Source: Anaerolineaceae bacterium
GTDB lineage: Bacteria; Chloroflexota; Anaerolineae; Anaerolineales; Anaerolineaceae
Assembly (NCBI GenBank): GCA_014860845.1
Contig: JACZIY010000247.1
Location: forward strand, 1 to 17,411
Length of the DNA stretch: 17,411 nt
Direction of reading: 5' to 3'
Shown here: positions 3 to 15,926 of the stretch, one piece after another
Numbering within the stretch: position 1 is the stretch's first letter
Layout of the letters: each line of letters starts with the position of its first letter
Notes under the pieces: generated by a model
Told to the model about the DNA's origin: nothing
Database searches by the model: none
The model's input: only the letters and a program-made list of their open reading frames with translations
Position numbers and translations under genes: made by a program

Positions 3-134
3 ACAGATTTTGCTACAATTACTGAAGATGAAATCAAAGAAGTCCAGCGAAGCCTGAATGATCGTCCCAGAGCAGTGTTAGATTACCTAAAACCGGATGA
101 GGTTTTCAATAAACTTGTTGCACTAAAAATCTGA
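3..134 (+). CDS. IS30-family transposase, C-terminal fragment (runs off left edge)
   Basis: The reading frame is open from the first base and ends at a TGA, giving 43 visible residues. The end resembles the C-terminus of IS30-type DDE transposases: a TDF start, an EI-x-x-V-x-x-x-LN-x-RPR motif, then the TP-x-EVF-like segment (here KPDEVFNKL). In that family this segment follows the last catalytic Glu and closes the RNase H-like core. The fragment may belong to a complete element outside the window or to a remnant; the inverted repeat expected just past the stop cannot be recognised without its partner. It is transcribed toward the leftward lipoprotein genes, whose last stop is only 27 bases away. 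Confidence 0.75.
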   Translation, partial: TDFATITEDEIKEVQRSLNDRPRAVLDYLKPDEVFNKLVALKI

Positions 135-161
135 ATCCACAGATTAAATAAACGACATTTA

Positions 162-497
162 TTAACGAGCCCAATCACAATTTTCCACGTATGGTTGTAA
201 CTCCGTCCGAACCCAATGATTTTCCTGTTTTTCCCATCGGGAGGAAAAGAAAAAATCCAGACCAATCTCATAAGCTAGGCACCATCGTTCTTCCGCCATC
301 TGGTGTTGGTCGACCAGGACTGGTTCCAGAAAAACATCATGTGGCGTCATCCCAACTGCTAGAAATTTCATCGAGCGATCAGCTGTGGTCTTCAAACGCA
401 TCGGAACACCAGTGCAACCAACAAGGATTATTATTGAAAAGATTGTAATGAACCTGATTATTTTGCGGGTCAGAGCTTTTTCCTTTAGAGAGATCAT
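162..497 (-). CDS. small lipoprotein, paralogue 4 of a tandem family
   Basis: This 111-residue protein is predicted to be exported and lipidated. It has a basic n-region (KALTRKIIR), a hydrophobic stretch and a lipobox ending LVGC. After the lipid-Cys it shares the family pattern: PMRLK, a WCL-x-Y-E-I-G block, an SS-x-WEK block and the ending PYVENCDWAR. The ATG chosen overlaps the stop of the upstream paralogue by one base (TGATG), so translational coupling is likely. A longer frame exists upstream but lies entirely inside the neighbour. An alternative non-ATG start near 473 (CTG after AAAGGA) would give a signal peptide the same length as in the other copies. Function is unknown, and I do not recognise the family. 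Confidence 0.75.
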   Translation of the reverse strand: MISLKEKALTRKIIRFITIFSIIILVGCTGVPMRLKTTADRSMKFLAVGMTPHDVFLEPVLVDQHQMAEERWCLAYEIGLDFFFSSRWEKQENHWVRTELQPYVENCDWAR

Positions 498-811
498 CAG
501 CGTGCCCAATTGCAATCGTCTACATAAGGTCGAATTTCTGTTTGGATCCAGGTCTGTTCTAGTTTTTCCCACATACTGGAGAAACTGAATTCGGGACCAA
601 GCTCATAGGTCAGACACCATTTATTTTCATGCACTTGATGAGCATCGGTCATGATGGGTCTGAAGTGATTCATGCTTTCAATGGCAGTGGACATTTCTGC
701 ATTAAGGAAATGCATTGCCTGGTCGGCTGTACTTTTTAACCTCATTGGCATCCCGGTGCAGCCACTCAAGAAGGTCAAACCAGTGATGATTATTACCAAA
801 ACCTTCTTCAA
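497..811 (-). CDS. small lipoprotein, paralogue 3 of a tandem family
   Basis: This is a 104-residue predicted lipoprotein. A KK n-region is followed by a hydrophobic helix and the lipobox LSGC (Cys at residue 18). The mature part carries the shared family elements: MPMRLKSTAD, the WCLTYELG block, SS-x-WEKLE, and the end PYVDDCNWAR. Translation starts at a TTG with a clear ribosome-binding site (AAGGAG at 817-822, read on the minus strand, five bases before the start). It lies 22 bases after the preceding paralogue and overlaps the next one by one base, so the four genes look like one transcript. Two conserved Cys in the mature domain (in WCL and near the C-terminus) could form a disulfide. 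Function is unknown. Confidence 0.8.
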   Translation of the reverse strand: MKKVLVIIITGLTFLSGCTGMPMRLKSTADQAMHFLNAEMSTAIESMNHFRPIMTDAHQVHENKWCLTYELGPEFSFSSMWEKLEQTWIQTEIRPYVDDCNWAR

Positions 812-833
812 AAAAACTCCTTATTTATATTGT

Positions 834-1148
834 TCAGCGTGCCCAGTTACAATTTTCTACAAATGGGCGAATTTCTGTTCGCACCCAATTTCGTTCTTGT
901 TTTTCCCACATGGTAGAGAAACATAACAGGTGACCAATCTCATAAGTCAGGCACCATTTATCCTCTGTTACCTGAAATTGATCAATTAATAAGGGCTCCA
1001 GATATAAATTATCTTCTGTGATATTGGAATTTTGGGCTATAAAGATTAACATTTCATGACTGGCGGTCTTTTTTAATTTGAGAGGCATATCCGAACAACC
1101 ACTTAAAATCACCACACTGAGTAGCGCAATGATCAATAATTTTTTCAA
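834..1148 (-). CDS. small lipoprotein, paralogue 2 of a tandem family
   Basis: This 104-residue predicted lipoprotein has the n-region MKK, a hydrophobic helix and the lipobox LSGC at residues 15-18. The mature domain keeps MPLKLKKTA, WCLTYEIG, a S-x-MWEKQE block with SS reduced to FSTMW, and the terminal PFVENCNWAR. Translation begins at TTG, preceded by GGAGG four bases upstream. It is 26 bases downstream of paralogue 1 and 22 upstream of paralogue 3. The central part (about residues 35-55) differs strongly between the copies while the C-terminal half is well kept. This suggests a variable surface on a fixed fold. Function is unknown. Confidence 0.8.
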   Translation of the reverse strand: MKKLLIIALLSVVILSGCSDMPLKLKKTASHEMLIFIAQNSNITEDNLYLEPLLIDQFQVTEDKWCLTYEIGHLLCFSTMWEKQERNWVRTEIRPFVENCNWAR

Positions 1149-1174
1149 TATACCTCCCTCTTTTTAGATTGGGA

Positions 1175-1492
1175 TTATTTTACCCAATTGCAATTGTCTA
1201 TGTAAGGTTGAATTTCAACCTGTTTCCAATCTGATTCCTCTTTTTGCCAGCGGCTTGCGAAAAAAACCTCATCCGTAAGCTGGTATACCAGGCACCATTC
1301 TGTTTCTGAAATCTGAAGCATATCAGTCAAAGTCGGATTTTTCATTTGCGAGAATTCATTTACATTCGATAATTCGGAACTCAATATTCGAATTGCGTTT
1401 TCTGATGTACGCTTTAACTTAAGTGGTATAGGTGAACAACCAGTCAGGAACAATAATAGACAAATGATAAAAATGCGTTGCTTTTTATTCAT
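1175..1492 (-). CDS. small lipoprotein, paralogue 1 (first gene of the tandem set)
   Basis: This 105-residue predicted lipoprotein starts at an ATG with AAAGGA six bases upstream. It has a KKQR n-region, a hydrophobic helix and the lipobox LTGC (Cys at residue 19). It shares IPLKLKRTSE after the lipid-Cys, then a WCLVYQL block, an S-x-W-x-KEE block and the ending PYIDNCNWVK. It is the most divergent of the four copies, and no stem-loop separates it from the next. It is the promoter-proximal gene of the leftward set. A TATAAT-like box lies on the minus strand at 1562-1557. No homologue with known function comes to mind. Confidence 0.8.
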   Translation of the reverse strand: MNKKQRIFIICLLLFLTGCSPIPLKLKRTSENAIRILSSELSNVNEFSQMKNPTLTDMLQISETEWCLVYQLTDEVFFASRWQKEESDWKQVEIQPYIDNCNWVK

Positions 1493-1556
1493 GCTGTATC
1501 CTTTATAGTCATCTACTAAATTTCCGATTATTCATTATTGAGGATATTCACAAATA

Positions 1557-1638
1557 ATTATAAAGTATATTTCACGCGTTAATGGTTAATGAGGTACACA
1601 ATCGAATTTACCCATTAAGGTTTATTCTGAAATATAAT
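1557..1638. promoter_or_regulatory. divergent promoter region between lipoprotein genes and CAP-LysM gene (weak)
   Basis: The 208-bp gap between the divergent genes is AT-rich. A perfect TATAAT lies on the plus strand at 1633-1638, about 60 bases before the CAP-LysM ATG. Another lies on the minus strand at 1562-1557, about 65 bases before the first lipoprotein gene. Neither has a convincing -35 box at 16-18 bp, so only the -10 boxes are supported. No RBS is visible before the CAP gene. Confidence 0.3.
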
Positions 1639-1700
1639 GGATCAAAAGTTCAGATTTTAAATTTCAGACCCTGATTGAGGACTAATCAAAGACACAAAAC

Positions 1701-2708
1701 ATGTCCAAACCTTTTTCTTTGTTCCTGATTCTATTCTTCTTGTCCTTGCTGGTTTCACCCCTTCAATCATCACAGGTCGTTGAAGCACAGACTGAAAACG
1801 CCTATGATTTGATCAGTGTAGTCAATGGACTGCGCGCATCGAAGGGTCTGGAAGCGTACCAAATCGATGCCTACCTGATGAGTTACGCCCAGCAACATGC
1901 CGATTATATGGCATCCATCCAATACTCCACGCACACCCATAGTGATGGTTCGGTTGCCTGGGAGAGCGGAATCCAGGAGAATGTTGCTGAAGGAACAGAA
2001 GGGATCATTACGACTTCATTCGTTGTTTATCAAATCTGGTCGGACTGGATCCACTGGCACATCATGGTCGATTACGCCAGCGGGGATGTTGGTGCCGGGG
2101 TGGCACTGGGAACAGATGGAATGGTTTATTATGTGCTGAATGTTCGGGCGGGTGACACCGTTCAGCCGGCTGTCCCTACCTCGAGTTCTGGAAGTGTAGC
2201 ACCGACTTCAAGTGGTACCCGCACGGCTACACCGGACTTGATTTCTTTGATGATTAAGAGCACTCCAGCTGCGGATGGTTCCATCATCCATGTGGTTGAC
2301 TATGGTCAATCGTTGTGGAGTATTGCAGAAGCCTACAAAATCAAGATTGATCAATTACGCAGTTTGAATAGTATTCCGCAGGATTATTCGACCATTTACA
2401 CCGGTCAGGAATTACTGATACAGCCAGCATTTACCCCAACCGCGACCTTATCAGCAGAAGAAGCAGCCACCCTTACCAAAACTTTTGAACCGACAGCCAT
2501 TCCTCCCACCGCAACCCTCAAACCTTCCCGGACAGCTTTACCTTCTGCTTCACCATCCCCAACTGTGACTTCATTACCAGTTACAACGCCGGAAAACGAA
2601 CCAAATTCAGTGGCCATGGTGGTGATGGGTGTCAGTTTGCTGGGATTGGTCGTAGTGGTAATTTTTGGATTTGTAAAGACAAGAAATACCAAAAAGATAG
2701 TGGATTAA
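1701..2708 (+). CDS. secreted CAP/SCP-domain protein with LysM domain and C-terminal membrane anchor
   Basis: This 335-residue protein has a signal peptide at residues 1-30, with likely cleavage after VEAQ. A CAP (SCP/PR1-like) domain follows at about 35-150. It shows the N-terminal helix LISVVNGLRASKGL, a QQHADYM segment carrying the family His (H66), QENVAEG (the ENxAEG box, E93), and a degenerate W-x-x-x-x-x-H-x-x-x-x segment near 113-125. A Ser/Thr/Pro linker leads to a LysM domain at about 196-243 (HVVDYGQSLWSIAEAY ... YTGQELLIQP), which in this family binds peptidoglycan or chitin-like glycans. A second Pro/Thr-rich stalk (244-300) ends in one transmembrane helix (303-325) and a basic tail. 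It is probably displayed on the outer face of the membrane and held in the wall. The role of bacterial CAP domains is poorly known, so no substrate is proposed. Confidence 0.9.
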   Translation: MSKPFSLFLILFFLSLLVSPLQSSQVVEAQTENAYDLISVVNGLRASKGLEAYQIDAYLMSYAQQHADYMASIQYSTHTHSDGSVAWESGIQENVAEGTEGIITTSFVVYQIWSDWIHWHIMVDYASGDVGAGVALGTDGMVYYVLNVRAGDTVQPAVPTSSSGSVAPTSSGTRTATPDLISLMIKSTPAADGSIIHVVDYGQSLWSIAEAYKIKIDQLRSLNSIPQDYSTIYTGQELLIQPAFTPTATLSAEEAATLTKTFEPTAIPPTATLKPSRTALPSASPSPTVTSLPVTTPENEPNSVAMVVMGVSLLGLVVVVIFGFVKTRNTKKIVD

Positions 2709-2735
2709 GAACAATATTCACCAGTCATTGCTGTC

Positions 2736-2782
2736 CACGAATGGGGATCACGAATACCCTAAGGGCATGATACTCACGAATA
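2736..2782 (+). repeat. three CACGAAT(A) direct repeats in the 2709-3018 gap
   Basis: CACGAAT occurs at 2736-2742, and CACGAATA at 2749-2756 and 2775-2782. The starts are 13 and 26 bases apart, that is, multiples of 13. The rest of this roughly 310-base gap holds no gene that I can support, only a short promoter-like element near its right end. Confidence 0.4.
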
Positions 2783-2942
2783 AAACAAGTAGACTCGACC
2801 GTGCATAGTAGAAATTTTCCAAATCTTCCCGCAATTTATTGAATTCCAGGAGAGAGCAGGTCCTGTAAAGGATTTTCTTTCTTGCCCCGTGAACCGGATA
2901 AGATTATTCGACTCGTTCAGAATTTAATTCGGTCGCTGAGAA

Positions 2943-2971
2943 TTGACTGAATGGCAACGTCTGATTATTAA
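2943..2971 (+). promoter_or_regulatory. putative promoter for the Nudix gene run
   Basis: TTGACT (2943-2948) is followed after 17 bp by TATTAA (2966-2971). Transcription would begin around 2978, which favours the ATG at 3019 as the start of the first Nudix gene over a TTG at 2983. Confidence 0.4.
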
Positions 2972-3018
2972 GAACCCATTTATTGAAGGTCTCCCTGGAT
3001 GGTAAAATCAAAAGAGAC

Positions 3019-3483
3019 ATGAAAAAACTCCTGTTGAAAATATGGAAAGCATTACCCAATTCGGAAATCTTACGCGGAAGTCTGATCTGGTTGATCACGC
3101 AGAAATTTCTGGTTGGTGTTGTTGGCGTCGTACTGAATGATGCGGGGCAAATCCTGCTATTGAAACACACCTATCGGGGTAAATATCCATGGGGATTACC
3201 AAGCGGGTGGCTAAAGCGGGGTGAACAACCAATGGAAGCATTGCAGCGTGAAATTAAAGAAGAGACCGGGATGGATGTAAAGGTGATCAAACCTCTCCTG
3301 GTGAGTGGAGATGACCAGTGGCCTCGTGTGGATCTGATTTTTCTGTGTAGTGTGGTCAATGGTACATTTTCAGCGAGTGAAGAGGTTTCTTCAGCACGTT
3401 TTTTTAACATGCATGAAATTCCAGAGGTAATGCCATCCCAAAGAAAAGTAATTCAACAGGCTCATTCACAATGGCAGAAATAG
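3019..3483 (+). CDS. Nudix hydrolase (MutT-like)
   Basis: This 154-residue protein is predicted to hydrolyse a nucleoside diphosphate linked to another moiety, using Mg2+. The full Nudix box is present at residues 63-85 (G-x5-E-x7-REI-x-EE-x-G-M), including the metal-binding glutamates E78, E81 and E82. The preceding strand reads VGVVGVVLNDAGQILLLKH, followed by YPWGLPSGWL. The N-terminal 30 residues (MKKLLLKIWKALP...) form an amphipathic or hydrophobic extension seen in some Nudix proteins. The start is ambiguous: an in-frame TTG at 2983 would add 12 residues, but it has no RBS and would lie almost at the predicted transcription start. The gene overlaps the next Nudix gene. The substrate cannot be told from the sequence. 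Confidence 0.88.
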   Translation: MKKLLLKIWKALPNSEILRGSLIWLITQKFLVGVVGVVLNDAGQILLLKHTYRGKYPWGLPSGWLKRGEQPMEALQREIKEETGMDVKVIKPLLVSGDDQWPRVDLIFLCSVVNGTFSASEEVSSARFFNMHEIPEVMPSQRKVIQQAHSQWQK

Positions 3484-3947
3484 AAAATGCAATGAGATAC
3501 GGCATCAGCGCTGGGGCTGTTCTCCTGAACGATCAGGATCAGGTTTTACTGGTTCATCACCAGGAGAAGGAAACATTTGACTTCTGGGTGCCACCGGGTG
3601 GTCGACTGGAAGGGAATGAGTCTATCTTTGATTGTGCCAGACGTGAAGTCTTGGAAGAGACGGGCTTGCAGGTAGAATTGGGTCAGGTCCTTTACATTCA
3701 GGAATTCTGGGAGCCGGATTATCATTTTGTAAAATTTTTCATCAAAGGAAATGTCGTTGGTGGATCCCTGACTACACAAAATAAAGAAACTGATGAATAT
3801 TTTTTGGTGGATGCGAGGTTCTTCTCCCAACATGAGTTACAGAATCTTACGGTATTTCCAGAAATCCTGAAGAGCCAATTCTGGCAGGATAGGAAAAATG
3901 GAAACCTTTCCACGCGCTATCTGGGCTTGGAGCGATTAGCGTTTTAA
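3471..3947 (+). CDS. Nudix hydrolase
   Basis: This 158-residue protein has a complete Nudix box at residues 44-66 (G-x5-E-x7-REV-x-EE-x-G-L). The core opens with SAGAVLLNDQDQVLLVHHQE and a FWVPPGGRLEGNE approach to the box, and the C-terminal half contains a YHFVKFFIKGNV strand. The substrate is not identifiable, although the PPGGRLEGNE form is common among (d)NTP- and NDP-sugar-type hydrolases. It overlaps the previous gene by 13 bases if the first ATG is used. A second ATG at 3492 would leave an 8-base gap, and neither has a strong RBS. Both Nudix genes are probably co-transcribed. Confidence 0.88.
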   Translation: MAEIENAMRYGISAGAVLLNDQDQVLLVHHQEKETFDFWVPPGGRLEGNESIFDCARREVLEETGLQVELGQVLYIQEFWEPDYHFVKFFIKGNVVGGSLTTQNKETDEYFLVDARFFSQHELQNLTVFPEILKSQFWQDRKNGNLSTRYLGLERLAF

Positions 3948-4022
3948 CAAAAATCAGCACTCACTTTAAAGTTTTTTTGGCGGGAAAATTTTTAAATTAT
4001 GCGTCAACAGACAGGAAACCTT

Positions 4023-4589
4023 ATGGCTAATAAACTTTTACGACCCTGGAAAACACTTTCCAAAGAGACCATTCTCAACCACAATAAATTTCTTTCCGTG
4101 GAAAATCACGTGGTGGAGCTCCCGGATGGACAAATAATCCCCGATTGGGCGTGGGTTAAGATTCCAGATGCAGCGATTGTGTTGGCGGTATCAGAAGACG
4201 ATCAGTTTATTTGTTTCAGGCAGATCAGATATGCTGTAGACGGCATCACACTGGCAACGGTTGGCGGGATGATCGAGAGGGATGAGGAGCCGCTTGAGGC
4301 TGCGAAAAGGGAGTTGTTGGAAGAAACCGGGTATGCTGCAGAGAAGTGGGTCAGTATAGGCAAATACACTTTGGATCCGAATCGTGGGGTGGCAAATATG
4401 CACCTGTTTCTGGCTTTGGGTGCAAGACCGGTGTCAGAACCCATTGTCGATGATCTGGAAGATCAGGAATTGATTTTCCTGAGCAGGGAGGAAATTGAAA
4501 AAGCGTTATTGGCGGGTGAATTCAAAATTCTGACCTCGTCCGTGGTTGTTTCGATGTCTTTGAATTACATCCATTCTCTCGAAAAATAA
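4023..4589 (+). CDS. Nudix hydrolase, ADP-ribose pyrophosphatase type
   Basis: This 188-residue protein resembles the ADP-ribose pyrophosphatase (NudF-like) group. That group typically hydrolyses ADP-ribose to AMP and ribose 5-phosphate. The N-terminal domain reads RPWKTLSKETILNHNKFLSV with VELPDGQIIPDWAWV, as usual for the dimerising N-terminal sheet of this group. A full Nudix box lies at residues 82-104 (GMIERDE ... REL-L-EE-T-G-Y). The start at 4023 was chosen because AGGA lies at 4013-4016, six bases before it. An in-frame ATG at 3999 would add eight residues but has no RBS. It lies 75 bases after the second Nudix gene and 35 before a GNAT gene. ADP-ribose is the likely but unproven substrate. 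Confidence 0.85.
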   Translation: MANKLLRPWKTLSKETILNHNKFLSVENHVVELPDGQIIPDWAWVKIPDAAIVLAVSEDDQFICFRQIRYAVDGITLATVGGMIERDEEPLEAAKRELLEETGYAAEKWVSIGKYTLDPNRGVANMHLFLALGARPVSEPIVDDLEDQELIFLSREEIEKALLAGEFKILTSSVVVSMSLNYIHSLEK

Positions 4590-6455: not shown

Positions 6456-6683
6456 CTATCCTCCACTGATCGGTGTAACAAACACCACTACATCACCATC
6501 TTTCAGACGGCAGCTCTTTTTTACGATATCACTATTCACCGAGACAGGAAATGCATAGGCATGGATAGGTGCTTTGGACAACCGTAATAATTCAAAAACA
6601 CTGATATCGTTGGGGATTTGTAGACTGTCATGGTCTTGCAATCCTTGCACCTGAAAAGGGGCTATCATTGTGATGGTGATCAA
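6456..6683 (-). CDS. MoaD/ThiS-like ubiquitin-fold sulfur carrier, partner of the AOR
   Basis: This 75-residue protein ends in VTPISGG, with the C-terminal Gly-Gly used by MoaD/ThiS carriers for thiocarboxylation. Its body fits the beta-grasp fold, with VFELLRLSKAP and the LKDGDVVVFVTP strand just before the tail. MoaD supplies sulfur for the dithiolene of molybdopterin, the cofactor that holds tungsten in AOR enzymes, so the adjacent AOR gene fits. The start is taken as TTG at 6683-6681, overlapping the AOR stop by four bases (TTGA) and placed just after GGAGG, which gives a normal MITITM-like start. An internal ATG would lose the first strand, and a longer frame would run inside the AOR gene. 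Relatives in some AOR operons may have a dedicated carrier role. Confidence 0.8.
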   Translation of the reverse strand: MITITMIAPFQVQGLQDHDSLQIPNDISVFELLRLSKAPIHAYAFPVSVNSDIVKKSCRLKDGDVVVFVTPISGG

Positions 6684-8608
6684 AGATCCTCCGCAGGACG
6701 CAATGGATAACCGGTTTTTGCATCCCATCCCATTGCCTGCCAGAAGCTGCACCGCATGGCAAAAATATCGAAATGCAATCCTTTTTGTGGACCTTTCGTT
6801 ACCGGTGGATCACCAAAAACCAATGGGTTTATTTGAACCTCTGCGGGTTGGATGCCATGTTTGATATTAAACCATTGACGCAGATCCTGGATGCGTTTGC
6901 CAATTTCCATGTACTCATCCGGGCTGAACTTAAACCCCGTCACGGCATTTAACAAATCAAAAATTCCCAGCCGGGATGAACCGAGGTGGGCACCAAATAA
7001 ACACACCCCAGCACAGTCCATGATGGCCTTATAGACGGTGCCAGCCGCATTCATCATCGCATTTTCTTCACTATCCTGGTATTTTTTCTTTTTGGGGTAA
7101 GAGCGCGGAGGTTCTGGTGCCCAATTGACGCGAGTCCACAACTGGAACATTTCATACTCTGCTGTGTTGGTGATGGTATGGCGCCCCGGGGTGGGATCGC
7201 TGACATAACTGACACCCCAGGCGGGATCAAGCCGGGGATCATGCATGGGTAGCTCTGACCCACCAGCATGAAATGCAAAAGGCAGGCAGGCTGGTCCCAA
7301 TTTTTGTGCAGCCAGGCGAACCCCTTCAGCCAGGAGGTCACCAACCCCTTCTCGATAGGCAATTTGCTTCACGAGCTTCATGATCACTTCGGGGTCTCCC
7401 CATTTCAATTGAATCCCACCGGTGTCATCATTGGAAATAATCCCCTGTTCATAACAATCAAAGGCAAAACCAATTACGGAACCGGTGGAGATGGTGTCCA
7501 ACCCCAAGCGGTTGCAGGTGTCACCCAGATGATAAATACTATCAATATCCTCATTTAATAGATTCGCGCCAAGGGCTGTGACAGTTTCATATTCTGGCCG
7601 ATGAGTCTTTCCCGGTTCTGCTTTCATTTCCGTAATACTGCCACAACCTAATGGGCAGGCGGTGCAATGATATTTTTTCCGTTGCGTTACCTCGATTTTT
7701 GGAATACCAACATTGGATGCCTTAAACATCGAAGGATGTCCCCGCCAGTTTCTTACCGGAGAATCACCCGTCAGAATGCTCAATTCGTTGGCTGTGGCGG
7801 TTCCCCATTCACTGAAAGGGGGTAAGGACATCAAGCCATCAATGCGGAAATTCGTCTTCATGCCTGCCATTAATCTACCCAGTGGGGTGACAGACCAGGC
7901 TGGCATTTTGCTTTTGCCTTTGGGCATCAGTCCACTGACTGATTTAGCATATTTTTTTACTTCCTCTGAATTGGCTTTGGTCGTTCGTGTTTTTCCTTCC
8001 AACACCAGTGCTTTGAGATTTTTTGAACCCATCACTGCACCCAATCCTGAACGGGCAGCCATGCGACCATCGTCATTAGAAATCCCGGCAAAGCGGACAA
8101 GATTTTCTCCCGCTGGTCCAATTGCGGCTACACCTGCTCTACTACCGTGTCGTTGCTGTAATATATCTTCGGTTTCGATGGCATCCATTCCCCATAAGCC
8201 TTCTGCAGAATGGAGAGACACTACGCCATGATTGATATGGGCATACATAGGTGTTTTAGCCCGACCTGAAAAAAAGATGCCGTCATAACCGCTTAATTTT
8301 ATGGCTGGTGCGAAATTGCCACCGCAATTGGCATCTCCCCAGCCAAATGTTAGTGGAGATTTGCCGACTACCAGAAAACGTCCTCCAAACATACTGCCAG
8401 TACCTGCCAGCACCCCTGAAACGAACCCCAGAATATTTTCTGGGCTGAATGGATCGATCCCAGCGGGGATGCGCTCATAGAGGATTTTAGCTGCTAATCC
8501 CAGACCGGAAAGATACCGCTCATAAAACGAATCCGGTAATTCCTCTACAGAACTTTGGCCCGTTGAGAGATCAATAAATAGTACTTTTCCCATCACGCCA
8601 TGTACCAT
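6680..8608 (-). CDS. tungsten-dependent aldehyde:ferredoxin oxidoreductase
   Basis: This 642-residue protein belongs to the AOR family, which oxidises aldehydes to carboxylates (and can run in reverse), with ferredoxin as partner and a W-bis-pterin plus 4Fe-4S cluster. The N-terminal domain reads MGKVLFIDLSTG, with GGRFLVVGKSPLT and GDANCGGNFAPAIKLSGYDG. The central ISNDDGRMAARSGLGAVMGSKNLKA is a signature of the family. Cluster ligands are C315, C318 and C322 (C-x2-C-x3-C), with C536 as the fourth in D531-CAGVC. The segment ELPMHDPRLDPAWGVSYVSDPTPGRH matches the second pterin-binding region, but with DPAWG where DPRG is usual. The start has AGAGG six bases upstream. It is coupled to the MoaD-like gene and divergent from the SorC operon. 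The preferred aldehyde is unknown. Confidence 0.93.
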   Translation of the reverse strand: MVHGVMGKVLFIDLSTGQSSVEELPDSFYERYLSGLGLAAKILYERIPAGIDPFSPENILGFVSGVLAGTGSMFGGRFLVVGKSPLTFGWGDANCGGNFAPAIKLSGYDGIFFSGRAKTPMYAHINHGVVSLHSAEGLWGMDAIETEDILQQRHGSRAGVAAIGPAGENLVRFAGISNDDGRMAARSGLGAVMGSKNLKALVLEGKTRTTKANSEEVKKYAKSVSGLMPKGKSKMPAWSVTPLGRLMAGMKTNFRIDGLMSLPPFSEWGTATANELSILTGDSPVRNWRGHPSMFKASNVGIPKIEVTQRKKYHCTACPLGCGSITEMKAEPGKTHRPEYETVTALGANLLNEDIDSIYHLGDTCNRLGLDTISTGSVIGFAFDCYEQGIISNDDTGGIQLKWGDPEVIMKLVKQIAYREGVGDLLAEGVRLAAQKLGPACLPFAFHAGGSELPMHDPRLDPAWGVSYVSDPTPGRHTITNTAEYEMFQLWTRVNWAPEPPRSYPKKKKYQDSEENAMMNAAGTVYKAIMDCAGVCLFGAHLGSSRLGIFDLLNAVTGFKFSPDEYMEIGKRIQDLRQWFNIKHGIQPAEVQINPLVFGDPPVTKGPQKGLHFDIFAMRCSFWQAMGWDAKTGYPLRPAEDL

Positions 8609-8659
8609 TGCTGCACCTCTTATTAGATTTTACAATGAAATTTCGGTAAGGAAATGGGG

Positions 8660-8687
8660 TTGACTTTCACTTAAGGATTGTTACAAT
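8660..8687 (+). promoter_or_regulatory. promoter for the SorC regulator operon
   Basis: TTGACT (8660-8665), a 16-bp spacer and TACAAT (8682-8687) form a good sigma70-type promoter. Transcription would start around 8694, about 40 bases before the regulator ATG. The -10 box lies inside the palindrome at 8679-8694. Confidence 0.6.
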
Positions 8688-8694
8688 AATAACA
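8679..8694. promoter_or_regulatory. candidate operator overlapping both divergent -10 boxes
   Basis: TGTTA and TAACA are 5-bp inverted arms separated by six bases (16 bp in all). The site covers the rightward -10 (8682-8687) and the leftward -10 (8691-8686), so a bound regulator would affect both transcripts at once. Confidence 0.45.
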
Positions 8695-8713
8695 TACCGT
8701 GAAATTTTGTAAA
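8686..8713 (-). promoter_or_regulatory. promoter for the AOR-MoaD operon
   Basis: Read on the minus strand, TTTACA (8713-8708) is followed by a 16-bp spacer and TATTAT (8691-8686). Both boxes match the consensus at five of six bases. The predicted start is near 8680, leaving a leader of about 70 bases. Confidence 0.55.
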
Positions 8714-8732
8714 CCCCTTATTTTAATAATCA

Positions 8733-9698
8733 ATGGATGATAATACGATCTCTCGTCATCAATTGCTTGCGAGGATTGCCTGGATGTATTACCAGGACGA
8801 TCAAACACAGGCTGAAATTGCGGAAAAACTGGGCTTTTCACGCGTTACCATCAATCGCATGATCAAGGAAGCCCGGGAACTGGGTCTGGTTGAAATTAAG
8901 ATCAAAACGGATTTCGCCAATATATATGAGCTATCCAGTCGCTTATGTAAACAATATGGATTATTGGATGTCATTTGTGTGCGATCTGCGCATCATTCAG
9001 AGGATCAGCAGTCGATTATTGCCCAAGGGGCAGCAGCAGTATTATCCCATCACCTCCAGGAAGGAATAACAGTTGGGATTGGAGTTGGTCGAACGATCTC
9101 CTTTATTCCTGATTATTTTGGACCAGAAAATCCGATTCCTTGCCGGTTTATCAGCCTGACTGGTGGATTGGATTTAAAGGAACATGGTGTACCACATAGT
9201 TTTGATACCATTACCCGCTTAGCGATTAAAACCGGGGGGGAAGTCATTTACATTCCTGCTCCTTCCTACCTTGCAGATCCATCTGCCTATGAGATTTTTA
9301 TGCAACAACCAGCTGTTATCAATGCCCTACAGATGGCTTCATCCAGCCAGATGGCATTTTTTAGTGTAGGTGCAACCGATTATAGCGCTATCTTATTCCA
9401 GATGCGATACCTGAATGATCAGGATATGAACGAACTTAAGAAAAAAAAGGCGGTCGGCGATGTGTTGGGACGCTTTTACGATGTCAATGGAGAACAAATT
9501 CAATTAACGCTCAATAAACGGACGATTGGATTGGAAATCAATGAATTGAAAAAAATCCCCTTAAAAATTCTCGTAGCAGGTGGTGTCAACAAAGTACAAG
9601 CGATCAAAGTTGCCATGATCCACAAGTTTTGCGATATTTTGGTCACGGATGAGGAAACAGCGCTGCGGTTACTAAATCATCCAAGCGATGAATCATAA
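8733..9698 (+). CDS. SorC-family sugar-responsive transcriptional regulator
   Basis: This 321-residue protein has a short N-terminal helix-turn-helix at about residues 13-55 (YYQDDQTQAEIAEKLGFSRVTINRMIKEARELGLVEIKI). It is followed by a SorC-type sugar-phosphate-binding domain at about 60-318. Family marks are GITVGIGVGRT, the FISLTGGL segment, a GVGATD-like FFSVGATD, and the ending KILVAGGVNKVQAIKVAMIHKFCDILVTDEETA. In this family a phosphorylated sugar made by the regulated pathway is usually the effector. The downstream kinase domain could therefore make the inducer. The gene sits between two divergent operons and shares a 21-base gap with the giant enzyme gene, so it is co-transcribed with it. 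No strong RBS is seen before its ATG. Confidence 0.9.
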   Translation: MDDNTISRHQLLARIAWMYYQDDQTQAEIAEKLGFSRVTINRMIKEARELGLVEIKIKTDFANIYELSSRLCKQYGLLDVICVRSAHHSEDQQSIIAQGAAAVLSHHLQEGITVGIGVGRTISFIPDYFGPENPIPCRFISLTGGLDLKEHGVPHSFDTITRLAIKTGGEVIYIPAPSYLADPSAYEIFMQQPAVINALQMASSSQMAFFSVGATDYSAILFQMRYLNDQDMNELKKKKAVGDVLGRFYDVNGEQIQLTLNKRTIGLEINELKKIPLKILVAGGVNKVQAIKVAMIHKFCDILVTDEETALRLLNHPSDES

Positions 9699-9719: not shown

Positions 9720-12700
9720 ATGTCATCACGGTTTTTAATAAGTTTGGATCTGGGGGGTAGTGGCGGAAAAGCATTGGTTTATGATATTCAGAAGAACCAA
9801 TACACTCTTTCAACCTGTTCCTGGCAATTACCACCTGCTCCTGAAGCAGGTTCCTATGCTTATAATCTTGGTTGGTCTGAACGCTGGCAGGAATTATGTG
9901 TGATCACACGTGAGGCATTGCAGCGCGCCGGGGCAAAACCCGGGGAAGTGGCTGGGATATCTGTCAGCAGTATGCGTCATGGGTTGGTACTTATCAATAA
10001 AGAAGGGGTTCCTTTATTAGCTGTACCGAACAAGGATGCCAGGGCAATCAGTGAGAGCATGGATTTGCAAGGTGAACGCGGAGATGAAGTGTATCGTATC
10101 AGCGGTCATGTACCAAGCCCAGTACTGATGGCACCGCGATTGATCTATATCAAGAATAACCATCCGGATTTATTGGCACAAACGTATAAAGTTTTGACCA
10201 TTAGCGATTGGATGGCATATATGCTTTGTCAGGTGGCAGTCAGTGAGCCAACTCAGGCAGGTGAAACCTGTTTATTTGATCTTGCCAAAAACGATTGGGC
10301 ATGGGGTCTTATTGATGAATTGGGCTTACCTAAATCCATTTTTCCCCGCATTGTAAAAACTGGAGAAAAAATAGGGACGCTGAGTCCAAAAGCGGCCGAA
10401 GAGCTGGGCTTGCAGGCAGGGATTCCAATCGCAGCGGGTGGCGCAGACACGCAATTGGGATTGCTGGGTCTAGGAATTGTTGGACCGGGTGAAATCGGCA
10501 TCATTGCTGGAAGTACGACCCCGGTGATGGTAACCACAAGTTCACCAGTACTTGATCCCAACAAAAGAACCTGGACGGGCATGCATGCGATTCCCAATGC
10601 CTATGTGGTGGAAAGTAATGCAGGTGCCATGGGCACCACGCTGGAATGGATGGCTGGCATTCTTTATGCAGATTCTCCCGCACCGGTGGCTGCGTTGGCT
10701 GGAGATGCTCAACACAGTGTACCGGGAGCAAGTGGGGTGATTTCCACCCTGGGTTCACAGATCTTTAATGCTTCCTCTCTTGGGTTGCCGGTGGATGGGC
10801 TTACATTTTCGAGTATGACCGTTCCCAGTGGACCGAACGGACGATCCCATCTGGCAAGAGCAGTCTTGGAGGGAATGGCTTTCGGTACAAGAGCGAATGC
10901 TGATCAGGCACAGGCTGTCTCTGGTGTTAAACTACAAAGCGTTCATGCGGGTGGTGGCATGACGCGTAGCAAATTACTGCAACAAATTATCGCTGATGTG
11001 TATAATTTACCGTTACATTGCGATGGTGGACAGCAAACATCTGCTTTTGGTGCAGTAATTTGTGCTGCTTTTGGTGCAGGGTTGTATCCATCGCTGACCA
11101 AAGCCGCGGAAGAAATGACAAAGGGTTTAATGGATATTAAACCCGATCGTTATGCAGATCAATATCTAGAACTTTATAAAACCTGGCGTGGACATCTAGA
11201 CCAGCGCGCTGGAGCGGATGCTGTGGCGACGGATAGCATTATGCAGGCCATGCAATTGGCATCAGAAAGTGAGGAATCGGATCGAGATGTAACTTTCCGC
11301 CCACGGATTTATGTCAGTGCGAATGCAGGCCAGGAAGCGATTCAAATGTTGGAAAAATTGGGGGAGGTCAAGTACGAATCATATTCAGAATCCGGCACAT
11401 TGCTAGAAGGTGATGAGATGGTGGACGCAATTGCTGGATACCAGGTTCTGGTAACAGAGGTGGATATGGTCAGTGCTGGCGTCTTGCAAAGAGCCAAGGA
11501 TTTAAGAGTGGTGGTTGCTTGTCGTGGAAATCCAGTTAATGTGGATATTCCAGCCTGTACGGCTGCTGGTGTACCCGTTATCAATACCCCGGGACGTAAC
11601 GCCGATGCAGTGGCTGACCTGGCTGTTTCCTTTATGTTGATGTTGGTTCGAAAACTGGATAAAGCTACGGACTTCTTACGCCAGCCGGGGGGAGAAGCCG
11701 GCGATATGGGACGTATGGGGCAGGCGTATTTTACTTTGAAGGCTAATGAGCTCTGGCATAAGACAGTTGGAGTCATTGGTGGGGGTGCGATCGGGCGTAA
11801 GGTTGTGCGGAGATTACTGCCTTTTGACGTTAACTGTCTGATATATGATCCCTATTTGAGTGCTGAAGAAGCTGCCTTATTTGGGGCGATCAAAGTTGAT
11901 CTGGATGAGTTGTTATCCAAAAGTGATATTGTCAGTTTACATGCACCGGTGACGGATGAAACCACAGGATTGATAAATGCATCTGCTTTCGATCGCATGA
12001 AACCTGGCGCATATCTGGTTAACACAGCCCGGGCAGCCCTGGTTGATCACGATGCTTTACTGGATTGCTTGAAGAGTGGAAAACTGGGTGGTGTGGCTTT
12101 GGATGTCTTTCCGGTTGAACCTCCCGGATCCGATGATCCCATATTTGCGTTTGAGAATGTCATCGCAACTCCTCATATCGGTGGCAATACGAGCGAAGTT
12201 GGTATTCACCAGGGAGAAATTATTGTTGATGAATTAAAACGTTTGCTGCGAGGGGAGCCGCCAAAGTACATCTTAAACCCGGTGACATTTGCTGGATTCC
12301 GCTGGAGTGGGGAGCGGAAACTGGATCAGGCAGCTCTCGCTGAACGGGCAAAAGGACCCGGTCCGGGTATGACAGATCTGGATTTGAAAGCCAGACAGGA
12401 AGAAGCGTCTACATCCAACATGGAGGAGAAACCAAAAGGTGGTGGATTGCTGGGTAGTCTAAAGAAATTGATTGGCGGAAAAGAGAAAGAAGCTGCCAGC
12501 CAAGAAGTAATTTCATCAGAGATGAGTGTTCCTGGAGGAATAAGCACAGCTGAAAAACATTATGCAGCTATTCTGGAAAAATTTCTATCTGATTTGTCCA
12601 TTGATGAGAAAGCACAAACTTTTGCGAAAACAAATAAGGTGTCTTTTCAATTTGTGTTGAAAAATACATCCATTTTATTCTTTATGGGTTTTGCTGGCGG

Positions 12701-14156
12701 AAAAGTCGATGCAGGTATGGGTGAAGCACCTTTTAAACCGGATGTGACTGTTAAATTGGACGCTGACACCTTCGATGGAATGTTCACTGGTCGCGTAGAT
12801 GGGCGAAAAGCTTTCTCTGAAGGTCGGCTTTCCGTGGGTGGAAATATGCTCAAGGCAATGGCCATGCAAAAACTTGATTTTGGTCCGGTCTATGTGGCTG
12901 CCAGAGATAAAATGGGTGGCGCTGGAGATTTATCCACGTTGGGTGCTCAACAACCCGCAGCCGTGCAAGTAACTTCTGCTCAAGTAGTGGCCTCAATACC
13001 GCCTGTGCCACCAACCAGTGCGCCGAATTTTGACACTTTCAACCGCGTGATTGAACGGTATGTCCAACTTATGAATAAGGATGCTGAGACTCAATCTTTT
13101 GCGAAAGGTAAAAATGTTACATTCCTTTACCAAATTAAGGACGCCGGCACCCAATTCTATACCAGTTTTGTGGACGGAAATGTAACCTGTGGAATGGGGG
13201 AAGCACCCATGAAAGTGGATGTGACCATCAAAACAGATGCAGCCACATTGGATGGAATGTTCAGTGGTCGGTTGGATGGAACCGCAGCCTTTAAGTCCGG
13301 AAAGCTTTCTGTTGGTGGCAATATGATGAAGGCTATGGTGATGCAGAAACTTAACTTTGGCGGTTTATATAAACAAGCTGTCTCTGAAGTGGGAGATCCT
13401 GGATTGAGTGGCGCAGTTGCTCCTTCCCTGCCAACAACCCCTCAGGCGAGTACTTCTGCACAACCATCGGTGAGTGGTACCACACCCGTTGCGAGTGTGC
13501 CAGCTGTTATTCACAAAACAGGAGACATCCGCGATACGATTCTGGAAATTAATAACGAACTTTATGCGAAAGGTATGATCACCTTTACCGGTGGAAACAT
13601 CAGCGCTCGCACCGATGATAACCCCAATGAATTATGGATTACCCCTAGCGGATTGAATAAAGCTAGCCTGCGCGCTGATATGATGGTGCGGATAGATCTG
13701 GATGGAAATATCATTGGTGGTGCTCAATTTAACGCTTCCAGTGAAAGGCGTGTCCATTGTGCGATCTATCAAGATCGTCCGGATGTAAAAGCAGTTGTAC
13801 ATGCACATGCAATGTATTCCACCTTGATGGCATTGACCAAAACTCCCTGGCAACCGATTTCAGCTGATGCCTGCTTCTTTGGTCAAATACCAGTAGTGCC
13901 ATTTATTATGCCCGGTACCCCTGAATTGGGTGATGAAGTAGGAAAGGCTATGGGTAAAAAAGGATTTGCTGCCATCATGAACAATCATGGTCTGGTGGTA
14001 GCGGGTTCCGATCTGCGTCGTGCAGCTGACATGACGGAAATGATTGAGTTGGTAGCACACAAATTAATCATTTGTCGTCAATTAGGGGTTGACCCTGAAA
14101 CCATTCCGGATGAAATCGCCAGCATGCTTGGTGAAATGGGATCAATGGTGGTTTAA
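9720..14156 (+). CDS. giant fusion: FGGY kinase + D-2-hydroxyacid dehydrogenase + two SCP2 domains + class II aldolase
   Basis: This is a 1478-residue single frame with AGGAGG (9709-9714) five bases before the ATG. Residues 1-495 are an FGGY sugar kinase: phosphate loop D9-LGGSGG, probable catalytic base D243 in GGADTQLG, and the C-terminal ATP-site signature HAGGGMTRSKLLQQIIADVYNLPL. Residues 528-855 are a D-2-hydroxyacid dehydrogenase: G687-x-G-x-x-G692, D710 for NAD, and the catalytic trio R771, E800 and H819. Residues 946-1058 and 1105-1217 are two SCP2 (sterol/lipid carrier) domains. Residues 1265-1478 are a class II aldolase with E1342 in the SSE-x-x-x-H motif and Zn ligands H1361, H1363 and H1423. 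All catalytic residues I could check are kept. Linkers are charged or Pro/Ala/Thr-rich. The likely role is sequential catabolism of a sugar or sugar acid; the substrate is unknown. Confidence 0.92.
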   Translation: MSSRFLISLDLGGSGGKALVYDIQKNQYTLSTCSWQLPPAPEAGSYAYNLGWSERWQELCVITREALQRAGAKPGEVAGISVSSMRHGLVLINKEGVPLLAVPNKDARAISESMDLQGERGDEVYRISGHVPSPVLMAPRLIYIKNNHPDLLAQTYKVLTISDWMAYMLCQVAVSEPTQAGETCLFDLAKNDWAWGLIDELGLPKSIFPRIVKTGEKIGTLSPKAAEELGLQAGIPIAAGGADTQLGLLGLGIVGPGEIGIIAGSTTPVMVTTSSPVLDPNKRTWTGMHAIPNAYVVESNAGAMGTTLEWMAGILYADSPAPVAALAGDAQHSVPGASGVISTLGSQIFNASSLGLPVDGLTFSSMTVPSGPNGRSHLARAVLEGMAFGTRANADQAQAVSGVKLQSVHAGGGMTRSKLLQQIIADVYNLPLHCDGGQQTSAFGAVICAAFGAGLYPSLTKAAEEMTKGLMDIKPDRYADQYLELYKTWRGHLDQRAGADAVATDSIMQAMQLASESEESDRDVTFRPRIYVSANAGQEAIQMLEKLGEVKYESYSESGTLLEGDEMVDAIAGYQVLVTEVDMVSAGVLQRAKDLRVVVACRGNPVNVDIPACTAAGVPVINTPGRNADAVADLAVSFMLMLVRKLDKATDFLRQPGGEAGDMGRMGQAYFTLKANELWHKTVGVIGGGAIGRKVVRRLLPFDVNCLIYDPYLSAEEAALFGAIKVDLDELLSKSDIVSLHAPVTDETTGLINASAFDRMKPGAYLVNTARAALVDHDALLDCLKSGKLGGVALDVFPVEPPGSDDPIFAFENVIATPHIGGNTSEVGIHQGEIIVDELKRLLRGEPPKYILNPVTFAGFRWSGERKLDQAALAERAKGPGPGMTDLDLKARQEEASTSNMEEKPKGGGLLGSLKKLIGGKEKEAASQEVISSEMSVPGGISTAEKHYAAILEKFLSDLSIDEKAQTFAKTNKVSFQFVLKNTSILFFMGFAGGKVDAGMGEAPFKPDVTVKLDADTFDGMFTGRVDGRKAFSEGRLSVGGNMLKAMAMQKLDFGPVYVAARDKMGGAGDLSTLGAQQPAAVQVTSAQVVASIPPVPPTSAPNFDTFNRVIERYVQLMNKDAETQSFAKGKNVTFLYQIKDAGTQFYTSFVDGNVTCGMGEAPMKVDVTIKTDAATLDGMFSGRLDGTAAFKSGKLSVGGNMMKAMVMQKLNFGGLYKQAVSEVGDPGLSGAVAPSLPTTPQASTSAQPSVSGTTPVASVPAVIHKTGDIRDTILEINNELYAKGMITFTGGNISARTDDNPNELWITPSGLNKASLRADMMVRIDLDGNIIGGAQFNASSERRVHCAIYQDRPDVKAVVHAHAMYSTLMALTKTPWQPISADACFFGQIPVVPFIMPGTPELGDEVGKAMGKKGFAAIMNNHGLVVAGSDLRRAADMTEMIELVAHKLIICRQLGVDPETIPDEIASMLGEMGSMVV
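12555..13370 (+). repeat. tandem SCP2-domain coding repeat inside the fusion gene
   Basis: The two copies encode about 113 residues each, offset by 159 residues (residues 946-1058 and 1105-1217). Over the 64-position segment starting at GMGEAP I count 43 identical residues, with shared blocks GMGEAP, DGMF-x-GR, LSVGGNM and MQKL. A recent internal duplication is the simplest reading. Confidence 0.75.
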
Positions 14157-14181: not shown

Positions 14182-15387
14182 ATGAAAAAGAGTATGTGGT
14201 TGATTTATCTGGTCGCTTTTATGGGTGTGGCTGGTTTTACCGCAGCTATGCCAATCATGCCTTTCTTTGTAAAGGACATGGGTGGCAGTGAAATTGAAAT
14301 TGGACTGGTTCTGGGTTTAACCGCCCTCATTGCCGTCATTTCTGGTCCTATCGTTGGTTATTATGGGGATCGCAGGGGGCGCCGTCCTGTGCTGATCATC
14401 AGCATGCTCGGTTTTGCGGCCTGGTACGCCTGCTTCTATTTCGCCAGAAGTATGCCTTTGGTTTATGTTGGGGCTTTCATTGGCGGATTATTCGCCAGTG
14501 GTGCACTGGCTGTAGCCACAGCTTACGCAACCGATGTAGGTGGACCGGAAAAAACCAGCAAAGTAATCGCCTATATGCAGGCAGCCCAAATGTTTGGTGC
14601 TCTCCTTCCACCATTGGCTTCAGGTTTTCTGGCAGAGATCAATACAAATTTACCCTTTGGAGTATTGGCGTTGATTGCCCTGGCAATCGGAGTATTGATG
14701 TTCCCATTTTTAAAGGAGTCATTACCGGTTGAAGTAAGGCAATCCGCTCAAAACCAATCCTTAAATCCGTTGAGCGCCACAAGAACTTCCTTTGGACAGA
14801 TATTCCAATATCTGCGAACACCGGTAGGGCCATTATTGTTAATTGCATTTTTAATAGCATTTCCAACCGGATTTTTCCAAACGATTTTGCCTTTGCTCAC
14901 CGGCAAATCAGGGTTGGGTACCAGTCAAACCGGAATTATTCTTTCCACGGGAACTTTATCCATTGTGTTGGTCAACGTCTTTCTGGTGGAATGGTCGGTG
15001 AAGAAGATTGGTTTGTGGGGAAACATTCTTTTTGGCATGGTATCAGCTGCCATCTTCTATGTCGTCTTGCCATTTTGTGCTGGTTTTTGGGCCTTTATGG
15101 TTGTGAATCTATTGCTATCTATGACGACAGCATCCATGCGACCAGCGCATATCACCTTGATTGCCATTCAGGTACAGGCGTCAGAACAATCTGTAGCGCA
15201 GGCTGCCTATAATCAATGGACAGCTATCGGTAATATTTTTGGTCCACCCTTAGGAGGATTTTTATACCAGAGTTTCAACGGATTTGTTTCCATGACGGTG
15301 GCTGGATTTTTGTTCCTGGCAGGAAGTGGATATACTCTCATTGCCAGCAAACGCAAAGGTCCTATCCCAGCTGTCGTCTCAAAATAA
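14182..15387 (+). CDS. major facilitator superfamily transporter
   Basis: This 401-residue integral membrane protein has about 12 helices. MFS motif A lies between helices 2 and 3 (G59-YYGDRRGRRP), and the N-terminal helix contains TAAMPIMPFFV, as in drug/proton antiporter-like MFS members. The start was set at the ATG at 14182 because AGGAGAG sits just upstream; a longer frame beginning inside the aldolase domain is not credible. It lies 25 bases after the giant enzyme gene and is probably the last gene of the operon. It could import the pathway substrate or export a product. MFS sequence alone does not give direction or substrate. No terminator with a T-run is visible after it. Confidence 0.9.
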   Translation: MKKSMWLIYLVAFMGVAGFTAAMPIMPFFVKDMGGSEIEIGLVLGLTALIAVISGPIVGYYGDRRGRRPVLIISMLGFAAWYACFYFARSMPLVYVGAFIGGLFASGALAVATAYATDVGGPEKTSKVIAYMQAAQMFGALLPPLASGFLAEINTNLPFGVLALIALAIGVLMFPFLKESLPVEVRQSAQNQSLNPLSATRTSFGQIFQYLRTPVGPLLLIAFLIAFPTGFFQTILPLLTGKSGLGTSQTGIILSTGTLSIVLVNVFLVEWSVKKIGLWGNILFGMVSAAIFYVVLPFCAGFWAFMVVNLLLSMTTASMRPAHITLIAIQVQASEQSVAQAAYNQWTAIGNIFGPPLGGFLYQSFNGFVSMTVAGFLFLAGSGYTLIASKRKGPIPAVVSK

Positions 15388-15533: not shown

Positions 15534-15926
15534 ATGAGTGATGGGATGTCGGATAATTTTCGCGTAAATCAAATTGGGCAGATTGCCATTCCGGTTGCTG
15601 ATCTGGAGCGGGCGGTGACATTCTACCGGGATGTGTTGGGAATGCGGTTTTTGTTTCAGGCTCCTCCCGGATTGGCGTTTTTTGATTGTGACGGTGTGCG
15701 ATTGTTGCTGGATGTACCGGCTAAAGGACAGCCCAATCAGTATGCTTCGATCATTTATTACAAGGTGGAGGATTTGCCATCTGCTGTTGAGACTTTGAAA
15801 ACCCGTGGCGTGGTCTTTGAACAAGAACCGGAATTGGTGGCAAAGATGCCGGACCATGAATTGTGGATGGCCTTCTTGAAGGATCCGGATGGGAATATGC
15901 TGGGATTGATGTGGGAGAAGAGATAG
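15534..15926 (+). CDS. VOC-superfamily (glyoxalase/bleomycin resistance fold) protein
   Basis: This 130-residue protein has the paired beta-alpha-beta-beta-beta fold of the vicinal oxygen chelate superfamily. Visible marks are QIAIPVADLERAVTFYRDVLGM at the start and the C-terminal FLKDPDGNMLGLMWEKR with the usual terminal Glu (E128). The first metal-ligand position, often His, is Gln (Q16), so metal binding may differ from classical glyoxalase I. The family includes isomerases, dioxygenases and antibiotic-binding proteins, and I cannot assign a reaction. The RBS AAAGGA is well placed. Its stop codon is the first unit of a 7-bp tandem repeat. Confidence 0.85.
   Translation: MSDGMSDNFRVNQIGQIAIPVADLERAVTFYRDVLGMRFLFQAPPGLAFFDCDGVRLLLDVPAKGQPNQYASIIYYKVEDLPSAVETLKTRGVVFEQEPELVAKMPDHELWMAFLKDPDGNMLGLMWEKR

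Follow-up and report, generated by a model that had tools for sequence, protein, structure and literature searches.

Can a single bacterial reading frame that strings together a carbohydrate kinase, a dehydrogenase, two SCP2 domains and an aldolase encode a real enzyme, and on what would such an enzyme act? This question is raised by the window analysed here, a stretch of 17,411 nt from an Anaerolineaceae bacterium, in which an earlier note, made from the sequence alone, had read a continuous frame of 1478 codons with five modules and intact active sites in all three enzyme modules. Both readings were borne out, the first by the ORF and Pfam, the second by catalytic residues that are present here and conserved in the best 120 of 639 homologues (Table 1).

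The fused protein and its homologues

The gene is one ORF that starts with ATG and runs without an internal stop. Pfam placed FGGY_N at residues 6-250 and FGGY_C at residues 261-452 of its product, 2-Hacid_dh and 2-Hacid_dh_C within residues 533-853, SCP2 in two stretches (the best at residues 1117-1211) and Aldolase_II at residues 1274-1447, all above the curated cut-offs; an overlapping Alkyl_sulf_C match is slightly under its own (26.7 bits, cut-off 27). More specifically, the dehydrogenase module has both Pfam domains and the Arg/Glu/His trio of a D-2-hydroxyacid dehydrogenase (2HADH), and its GxGxxG motif and Asp710 presumably indicate NAD. The kinase module has the autoinducer-2 kinase LsrK as its nearest solved relative (5ya0, 247 bits), followed by glycerol kinase (117 bits). 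The aldolase module, nearest to L-fuculose-1-phosphate aldolase FucA among solved structures (4c25, E 2.7e-23), carries the metal-binding His residues and the acid/base Glu of a FucA-type class II aldolase and stays under the cut-off of the NCBIfam model for L-fuculose-phosphate aldolase, PRK06833 (96.5 bits vs 264). The SCP2 assignment combines a Pfam score above gathering with an SCP2 fold, which in structure comparison resembles the liganded MFE-2 domain (1ikt is a top match), alkylsulfatases and UbiJ. In a predicted model of 958 residues, confident domains are joined by linkers of pLDDT <50; the pTM of this model is 0.41, and the relative placement of the modules was disregarded.

Of 7995 candidates scored in the homology search, 639 proteins reached E<=1e-3, and the best 120 of the 639 were analysed. 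Precomputed Pfam lists FGGY, 2HADH, SCP2 and aldolase domains in 119 of these 120; the remaining protein, P0024 (1072 aa), has no FGGY entry, and blastp with the window kinase still finds a piece of it. By blastp of the window modules, the order is kinase-dehydrogenase-SCP2-aldolase in 80 of the 120 and kinase-dehydrogenase-SCP2-SCP2-aldolase, the exact order for which the earlier note had proposed a search, in 40. The kinase Asp243 is kept in 118 of the 120 (the exceptions are one gap and one Gly), the dehydrogenase residues Arg771, Glu800 and His819 in all, the aldolase residues Glu1342, His1361 and His1363 in all and His1423 in 119. The chain is unbroken in Bellilinea caldifistulae (1319 codons) and in the complete chromosome of Candidatus Uabimicrobium amorphum (1322 codons), and a motif look-up at locus L017 gave no comparable unbroken stretch. 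An assembly artefact was rejected, since the chain is unbroken elsewhere and residues and order are kept in the best 120 of the 639 homologues. The fused protein is a member of a real and widespread enzyme family. This family is apparently undescribed: the earlier note knew of no described protein that joins these modules, and we too found no description of the fusion among the matches listed from open-licence PMC papers. In one homologous locus (L009:3773-6499) the dehydrogenase module is short by about 40 residues in frame, including a conserved EAGDMGRM-like motif.

Table 1. Features of the window, with positions counted from its first nucleotide.
Feature	Position	Strand	Basis
ThiS/MoaD-like protein overlapping 3' end of AOR gene	6456..6752	-	ORF, Pfam
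Aldehyde:ferredoxin oxidoreductase (AOR), divergent from regulator	6680..8608	-	Pfam AFOR_N, AFOR_C; 1aor 332 bits; tree
Intergenic region, 124 bp, between divergent AOR and regulator genes	8609..8732	.	13-nt direct repeat
SorC/DeoR-type sugar-binding regulator, 21 bp upstream of fused gene	8733..9698	+	ORF, Pfam, NCBIfam
Fused five-module enzyme, 1478 aa	9720..14156	+	ORF, Pfam, homologues, domain order, residues
FGGY carbohydrate kinase module, residues 6-452	9735..11075	+	Pfam; structure-database match
D-2-hydroxyacid dehydrogenase (2HADH) module, residues 533-853	11316..12278	+	Pfam; Arg771/Glu800/His819
SCP2 domain a, about residues 943-1065	12546..12914	+	Pfam; predicted model (residues 423-545 of modelled 958-aa piece)
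SCP2 domain b, about residues 1104-1224	13029..13391	+	
Class II aldolase module, residues 1262-1478	13503..14153	+	Pfam, solved-structure match, conserved residues
MFS transporter, 25 bp downstream of fused gene	14182..15387	+	ORF, Pfam

Distribution, split operons and origin of the fusion

The family extends over at least four phyla. A scan of species genomes gave 64 loci, part of them not fused; the fused copies in our trees belong to Chloroflexota, Myxococcota (often labelled Deltaproteobacteria), Bacillota and Planctomycetota. Carriers are mostly known here as metagenome assemblies, and two of those with fused copies, Bellilinea caldifistulae GOMI-1 (L005, class Anaerolineae) and Candidatus Uabimicrobium amorphum (L022), are named strains. 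In a Spirochaetales contig (L019) the copy is interrupted by the contig end. Within the class Anaerolineae, 28 of 396 genomes have a match at E<=1e-90 and are called carriers below: 17 have the fused gene (several truncated by contig ends, and one, G142, in two frames), 9 have split genes, and 2 have kinase and dehydrogenase only. The G142 gene (L113:7787-11714, minus strand) lies in two overlapping frames of 745 and 582 aa and is broken or misassembled.

At the nine split loci (L103-L110 and L112) the modules are adjacent separate genes, and a stand-alone SCP2 gene is present at seven of them (L103, L104, L105, L107, L108, L109 and L110; the L104 gene scores 48.8 bits vs a Pfam cut-off of 21.3), none being seen at L106 and L112. 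The occurrence of SCP2 as a gene of its own in seven of nine operons indicates that it is a part of the pathway, and suggests that the substrate or an intermediate is hydrophobic. Plasmids of Sinorhizobium and Paracoccus also carry adjacent FGGY kinase, 2HADH and aldolase genes, beside sugar-type ABC transporter genes, and no SCP2 gene was seen at these triads. Given that SCP2 is missing there and at L106 and L112, the core chemistry need not involve a lipid; indeed, the SCP2-free triads, together with the GPH/MFS_2 sugar symporters that accompany the fused gene at L045 and L040 in Bacillota, speak against a hydrophobic substrate as a general rule. The expectation in the earlier note that kinase, dehydrogenase and aldolase occur as separate neighbouring genes holds for both the plasmids and the Anaerolineae operons. 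In these operons the same parts are available as smaller separate proteins, so that each step could be assayed alone.

Gene order links the two forms. L104 reads, on one strand, GntR, SCP2, dehydrogenase, FGGY kinase, aldolase, AOR, class III aminotransferase, M28 peptidase family, a small ORF and an HpnA-like SDR (Pfam confirms SCP2, aldolase, AOR, aminotransferase, M28, SDR and GntR), and L114 and L139 read GntR, AOR, aminotransferase, M28, HpnA and the fused gene. From these orders we conclude that fused and split forms share a neighbourhood. At five of the nine split loci (L104, L105, L107, L109 and L110) AOR directly adjoins the SCP2-2HADH-FGGY-aldolase set.

Quick trees, with SH-aLRT as the only support value, were computed for the dehydrogenase (49 sequences), aldolase (45) and kinase (48) domains. 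Sequences with a stop or with less than 60% of the domain were excluded; the kinase domain of L108 and the dehydrogenase domain of L065 were left out for stops, and the kinase domain of L119 and the aldolase domains of L144, L145, L111, L067 and L068 were not found. All 32 fused sequences fell on one side of a single branch (SH-aLRT 99 for the dehydrogenase, 96 for the aldolase and 100 for the kinase), with the split sequences as their nearest neighbours in all three trees and the Sinorhizobium and Paracoccus plasmid sequences outside the fused-plus-split set, where branches are long. As the fused sequences group together in all three enzyme-domain trees, the data are consistent with one origin of the fusion. 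Six genomes in which no fused copy was found at E<=1e-30 have a stand-alone aldolase with 52-70% identity to that of the window (L036, L037, L038, L042, L043 and L044). At L037 an SCP2-like stretch apparently precedes the aldolase by eye; Pfam detects the aldolase alone.

Aldehyde-oxidizing partners and other neighbours

AOR genes stand near the fused gene in the window, where the regulator lies between the divergent genes, and at L007, L009, L011, L021, L039, L114 and L139 (L021 is the same contig as L118). At E<=1e-20 there are 190 AOR matches in the roughly 95 Mb of the 28 carriers; an AOR within about 6 kb is expected in 0.92 carriers vs at least 8 found (G012, G013, G021, G086, G102, G110, G149 and G179, among the matches listed); 20 of the 28 have none at this distance among the AOR matches listed. 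An AOR of the L104 type was detected at E<=1e-140 in 17 of the 396 class genomes, 12 carriers and 5 non-carriers, and at E<=1e-220, a cut chosen post hoc, 11 of 15 genomes were carriers (hypergeometric P 3e-11, assuming the same 396 genomes in both searches). In G081, G271 and G373 it is on another contig. The window AOR groups with the cluster AORs (SH-aLRT 93) at 38-43% identity to them; of the 20 comparison AORs in this tree, hand-picked from carrier genomes, L170 and L171 fall inside the cluster group and L158 and L159 beside it.

At other loci the gene immediately upstream of the fused one encodes an aldehyde dehydrogenase (ALDH; L012, L026 (= L117), L113, L116 and L142, and also L006, cut by a contig end); the L113 protein is Pfam Aldedh and 72% identical to that of L012. 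AOR matches are absent from three of the genomes with such loci (G142, G045 and G326) and number 13 in G063 (L026). A Fisher test of ALDH against AOR absence was disregarded, since the upstream flank is missing in several other genomes. The fused and split forms of Chloroflexota are accompanied by one AOR subfamily, or by ALDH instead. This company, together with the FucA-like aldolase, suggests that in Chloroflexota an aldehyde is made and then oxidized. The earlier note had read from the fusion the channelling of an intermediate, possibly a reactive aldehyde or an unstable phosphorylated keto acid; of these suggestions the aldehyde gains support in this phylum but not beyond it, as none of the 17 loci outside Chloroflexota (Myxococcota and other phyla, some with short flanks) has an AOR or ALDH of the cluster types. 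At L175 (positions 104-3641, plus strand) the gene for a cluster-type AOR, with 57% identity to the L104 protein, overlaps the beginning of a 494-aa ORF encoding a ketol-acid reductoisomerase (KARI_N, KARI_C) with a C-terminal SCP2 domain; the genome, G022, has no match to the kinase fusion at E<=1e-90.

A SorC-type regulator is directly upstream of the fused gene in Bellilinea (L005) as well as in the window. The ThiS/MoaD-like protein is possibly a sulfur carrier for the AOR cofactor, and the 13-nt direct repeat (85%; 8631-8643 and 8695-8707) is possibly an operator, or chance. Elsewhere, TetR genes lie upstream in L016 and L025, and AMP-binding enzyme genes downstream in L016 and L020, that of L016 being of acyl-CoA type and directly adjoining (Pfam was run on the L016 pair); an SDR gene stands beside L045, L040 and L004. 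Neither a tRNA nor an RNA family at gathering score was detected in the window. It also contains four tandem ORFs of 104-136 aa (162-1492, minus strand) that, judged by eye, resemble one another and have N-termini like those of lipoproteins, three consecutive NUDIX-domain proteins (2983-4589, plus strand) and, downstream of the MFS gene, a Glyoxalase-family protein (15534-15926, plus strand).

Candidate substrate and alternatives

We tentatively propose, with somewhat less than even confidence, that the fused protein combines several catabolic functions and acts on an amphipathic, polyhydroxylated substrate with a ketose-like or polyol head and a hydrophobic part. From its family, the FGGY module would transfer phosphate to a terminal hydroxyl on this head; the FucA-like aldolase, judging by family and intact residues, would cleave the resulting ketose-1-phosphate into dihydroxyacetone phosphate (DHAP) and an aldehyde carrying the rest, which in Chloroflexota the neighbouring AOR, or ALDH instead, may oxidize to an acid. 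The 2HADH module would act on a hydroxy or keto intermediate. One consistent place for it, a guess by analogy with fucose and rhamnose catabolism, where lactaldehyde is converted to lactate and pyruvate, would be an alpha-hydroxy acid derived from an alpha-hydroxyaldehyde. SCP2, as its fold and the low confidence of the linkers suggest, may hold the hydrophobic part on flexible linkers and present it to the active sites. If so, lipid handling and sugar-phosphate chemistry would be joined in one chain; we know of no described bacterial sugar-type catabolic enzyme with lipid-transfer domains.

This proposal is favoured by the AOR that adjoins the SCP2-containing split operons at five loci, by the neighbourhood and tree position that fused and split forms share, by AOR near at least 8 of 28 carriers and the concentration of its L104 type in carriers, and by ALDH directly upstream, including in three genomes without an AOR match. 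The FucA-like aldolase, the likeness of SCP2 to liganded domains with linkers of pLDDT <50 and the acyl-CoA-type enzyme downstream in L016 also argue for it. It is disfavoured by the absence of these AOR and ALDH types from the 17 loci outside Chloroflexota, by the 20 of 28 carriers without a listed AOR within about 6 kb, by the 5 non-carriers among 17 genomes with the L104-type AOR, by the low identity of the window AOR to the cluster AORs, by SCP2-free L106, L112 and plasmid triads, by the symporters paired with the fused gene in L045 and L040, and by the guessed role of 2HADH. A stronger version, in which fused enzyme and split operon form a dedicated anaerobic route that would strip off and consume the polyol head of amphipathic lipids, is quite doubtful. 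On chemical grounds its substrates could be, for example, phytosphingosine-type bases or the side chains of bacteriohopanepolyols; the class III aminotransferase would remove the amine where present, the FGGY module would make a lipid ketose-1-phosphate held by SCP2, the aldolase would release DHAP and a long-chain or hopanoid aldehyde, and the tungsten-type AOR would convert this to an acid. In such a catabolic assembly line SCP2 would act as a swinging carrier of lipid, for which we know of no precedent among described enzymes. If a lipid polyol were the substrate, the anaerobic dismantling of complex membrane lipids would become directly testable.

With an ordinary soluble sugar or polyol as substrate, the enzymes would act as the separate triads do, and SCP2 would be a scaffold or stabilizing module. 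The SCP2-free triads beside sugar transporter genes, the split loci L106 and L112 and the symporters adjoining the Bacillota copies fit this reading, and the lack of AOR and ALDH at the loci outside Chloroflexota makes it slightly more probable; we nevertheless regard it as rather unlikely: a module serving only as a linker would not have to be a separate gene, as found in seven of nine split loci, at L175 a cluster-type AOR adjoins a fusion of SCP2 with an enzyme resembling ketol-acid reductoisomerase, and the SCP2 fold matches liganded lipid-binding domains. Another route starts from an acid sugar, an aldonate being phosphorylated, its hydroxyl oxidized by 2HADH and the keto acid phosphate decarboxylated or split by the aldolase-fold module. 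That 2HADH enzymes usually act on hydroxy acids counts for it, as do matches to 3-oxo-tetronate-4-phosphate decarboxylase (105.1 bits) and 4-phosphoerythronate dehydrogenase PdxB (104.7 bits), but these lie far under the respective cut-offs (250 and 434), the aldolase module is nearest to FucA among solved structures, and plain decarboxylation would yield no aldehyde for the Chloroflexota AOR or ALDH; we consider this route improbable.

We give very little credence to the handling of an autoinducer-2-like signal by an LsrK-like kinase and an LsrR-like regulator. LsrK is the best match of the kinase and the regulator matches DeoR and LsrR models, yet in NCBIfam LsrK reaches 268.9 bits vs an equivalog cut-off of 528 and LsrR 160 vs 486, and none of the six window proteins scanned belongs to an LsrB-, LsrF- or LsrG-type family. 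A role in the biosynthesis of hopanoids or another isoprenoid lipid would likewise come as a surprise: the kinase, aldolase and AOR read as breakdown, and the search for squalene-hopene cyclase gave 388 bits in Uabimicrobium but nothing above 35 bits in the 28 Anaerolineae-class genomes, where partial matches of up to about 34 bits, which we take for other repeat proteins, exceed the low family cut-off (26.1 bits) in 14. In favour of such a role, 8 of 29 genomes have HpnA-family genes above cut-off, several loci have such a gene next to the cluster, and a prenyl synthase gene adjoins L002, L003 and L009. Degradation of hopanoids produced by other organisms is a separate possibility.

The modules belong to known families; what is new, as far as seen, is the way they are combined, a split operon that includes an SCP2 gene, and the link to AOR. 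The published precedent for the pairing of a kinase with a class II aldolase is the DHAP shunt or 5-deoxyribose salvage, in which a kinase, an isomerase and a class II aldolase (DrdA or Ald2) yield DHAP and an aldehyde; in E. coli one operon carries the genes alongside those for a DeoR-type repressor and a putative permease (PMC12632272, PMC6079011). DrdA shares 53% identity with FucA of S. pneumoniae (4C24; PMC6079011); 4C24 and 4c25 head the solved-structure matches of the window aldolase. In contrast to the fused protein, the shunt as described there uses separate proteins with an isomerase and without SCP2 or 2HADH, and its kinase is not stated there to be FGGY; Pfam found no MtnA/DrdI-type isomerase among the six window proteins scanned. 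The ketose-1-phosphate pathways of L-fucose (FucK-FucA) and L-rhamnose (RhaB-RhaD) also use an FGGY kinase and then a class II aldolase, with later oxidation or reduction of the aldehyde; however, they act on hydrophilic sugars through separate genes without SCP2, and their aldolases are distant relatives of the window aldolase (86 bits). Peroxisomal multifunctional enzyme type 2 (MFE-2), like the fused protein, combines an SCP2 domain with several catabolic enzymes in a single chain, but these are eukaryotic beta-oxidation enzymes with no kinase and no aldolase, and the MFE-2 short-chain dehydrogenase and hydratase domains are absent from the seven Pfam families matched by the fused protein. 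LsrK is the nearest characterized kinase to the FGGY module, which is nevertheless far under that family's cut-off. YoaC-YoaD of B. subtilis is an unfused kinase-2HADH gene set. The Sinorhizobium and Paracoccus sets have FGGY kinase, 2HADH and class II aldolase adjacent, as in the fused chain, but as separate SCP2-free genes placed outside the fused-plus-split set.
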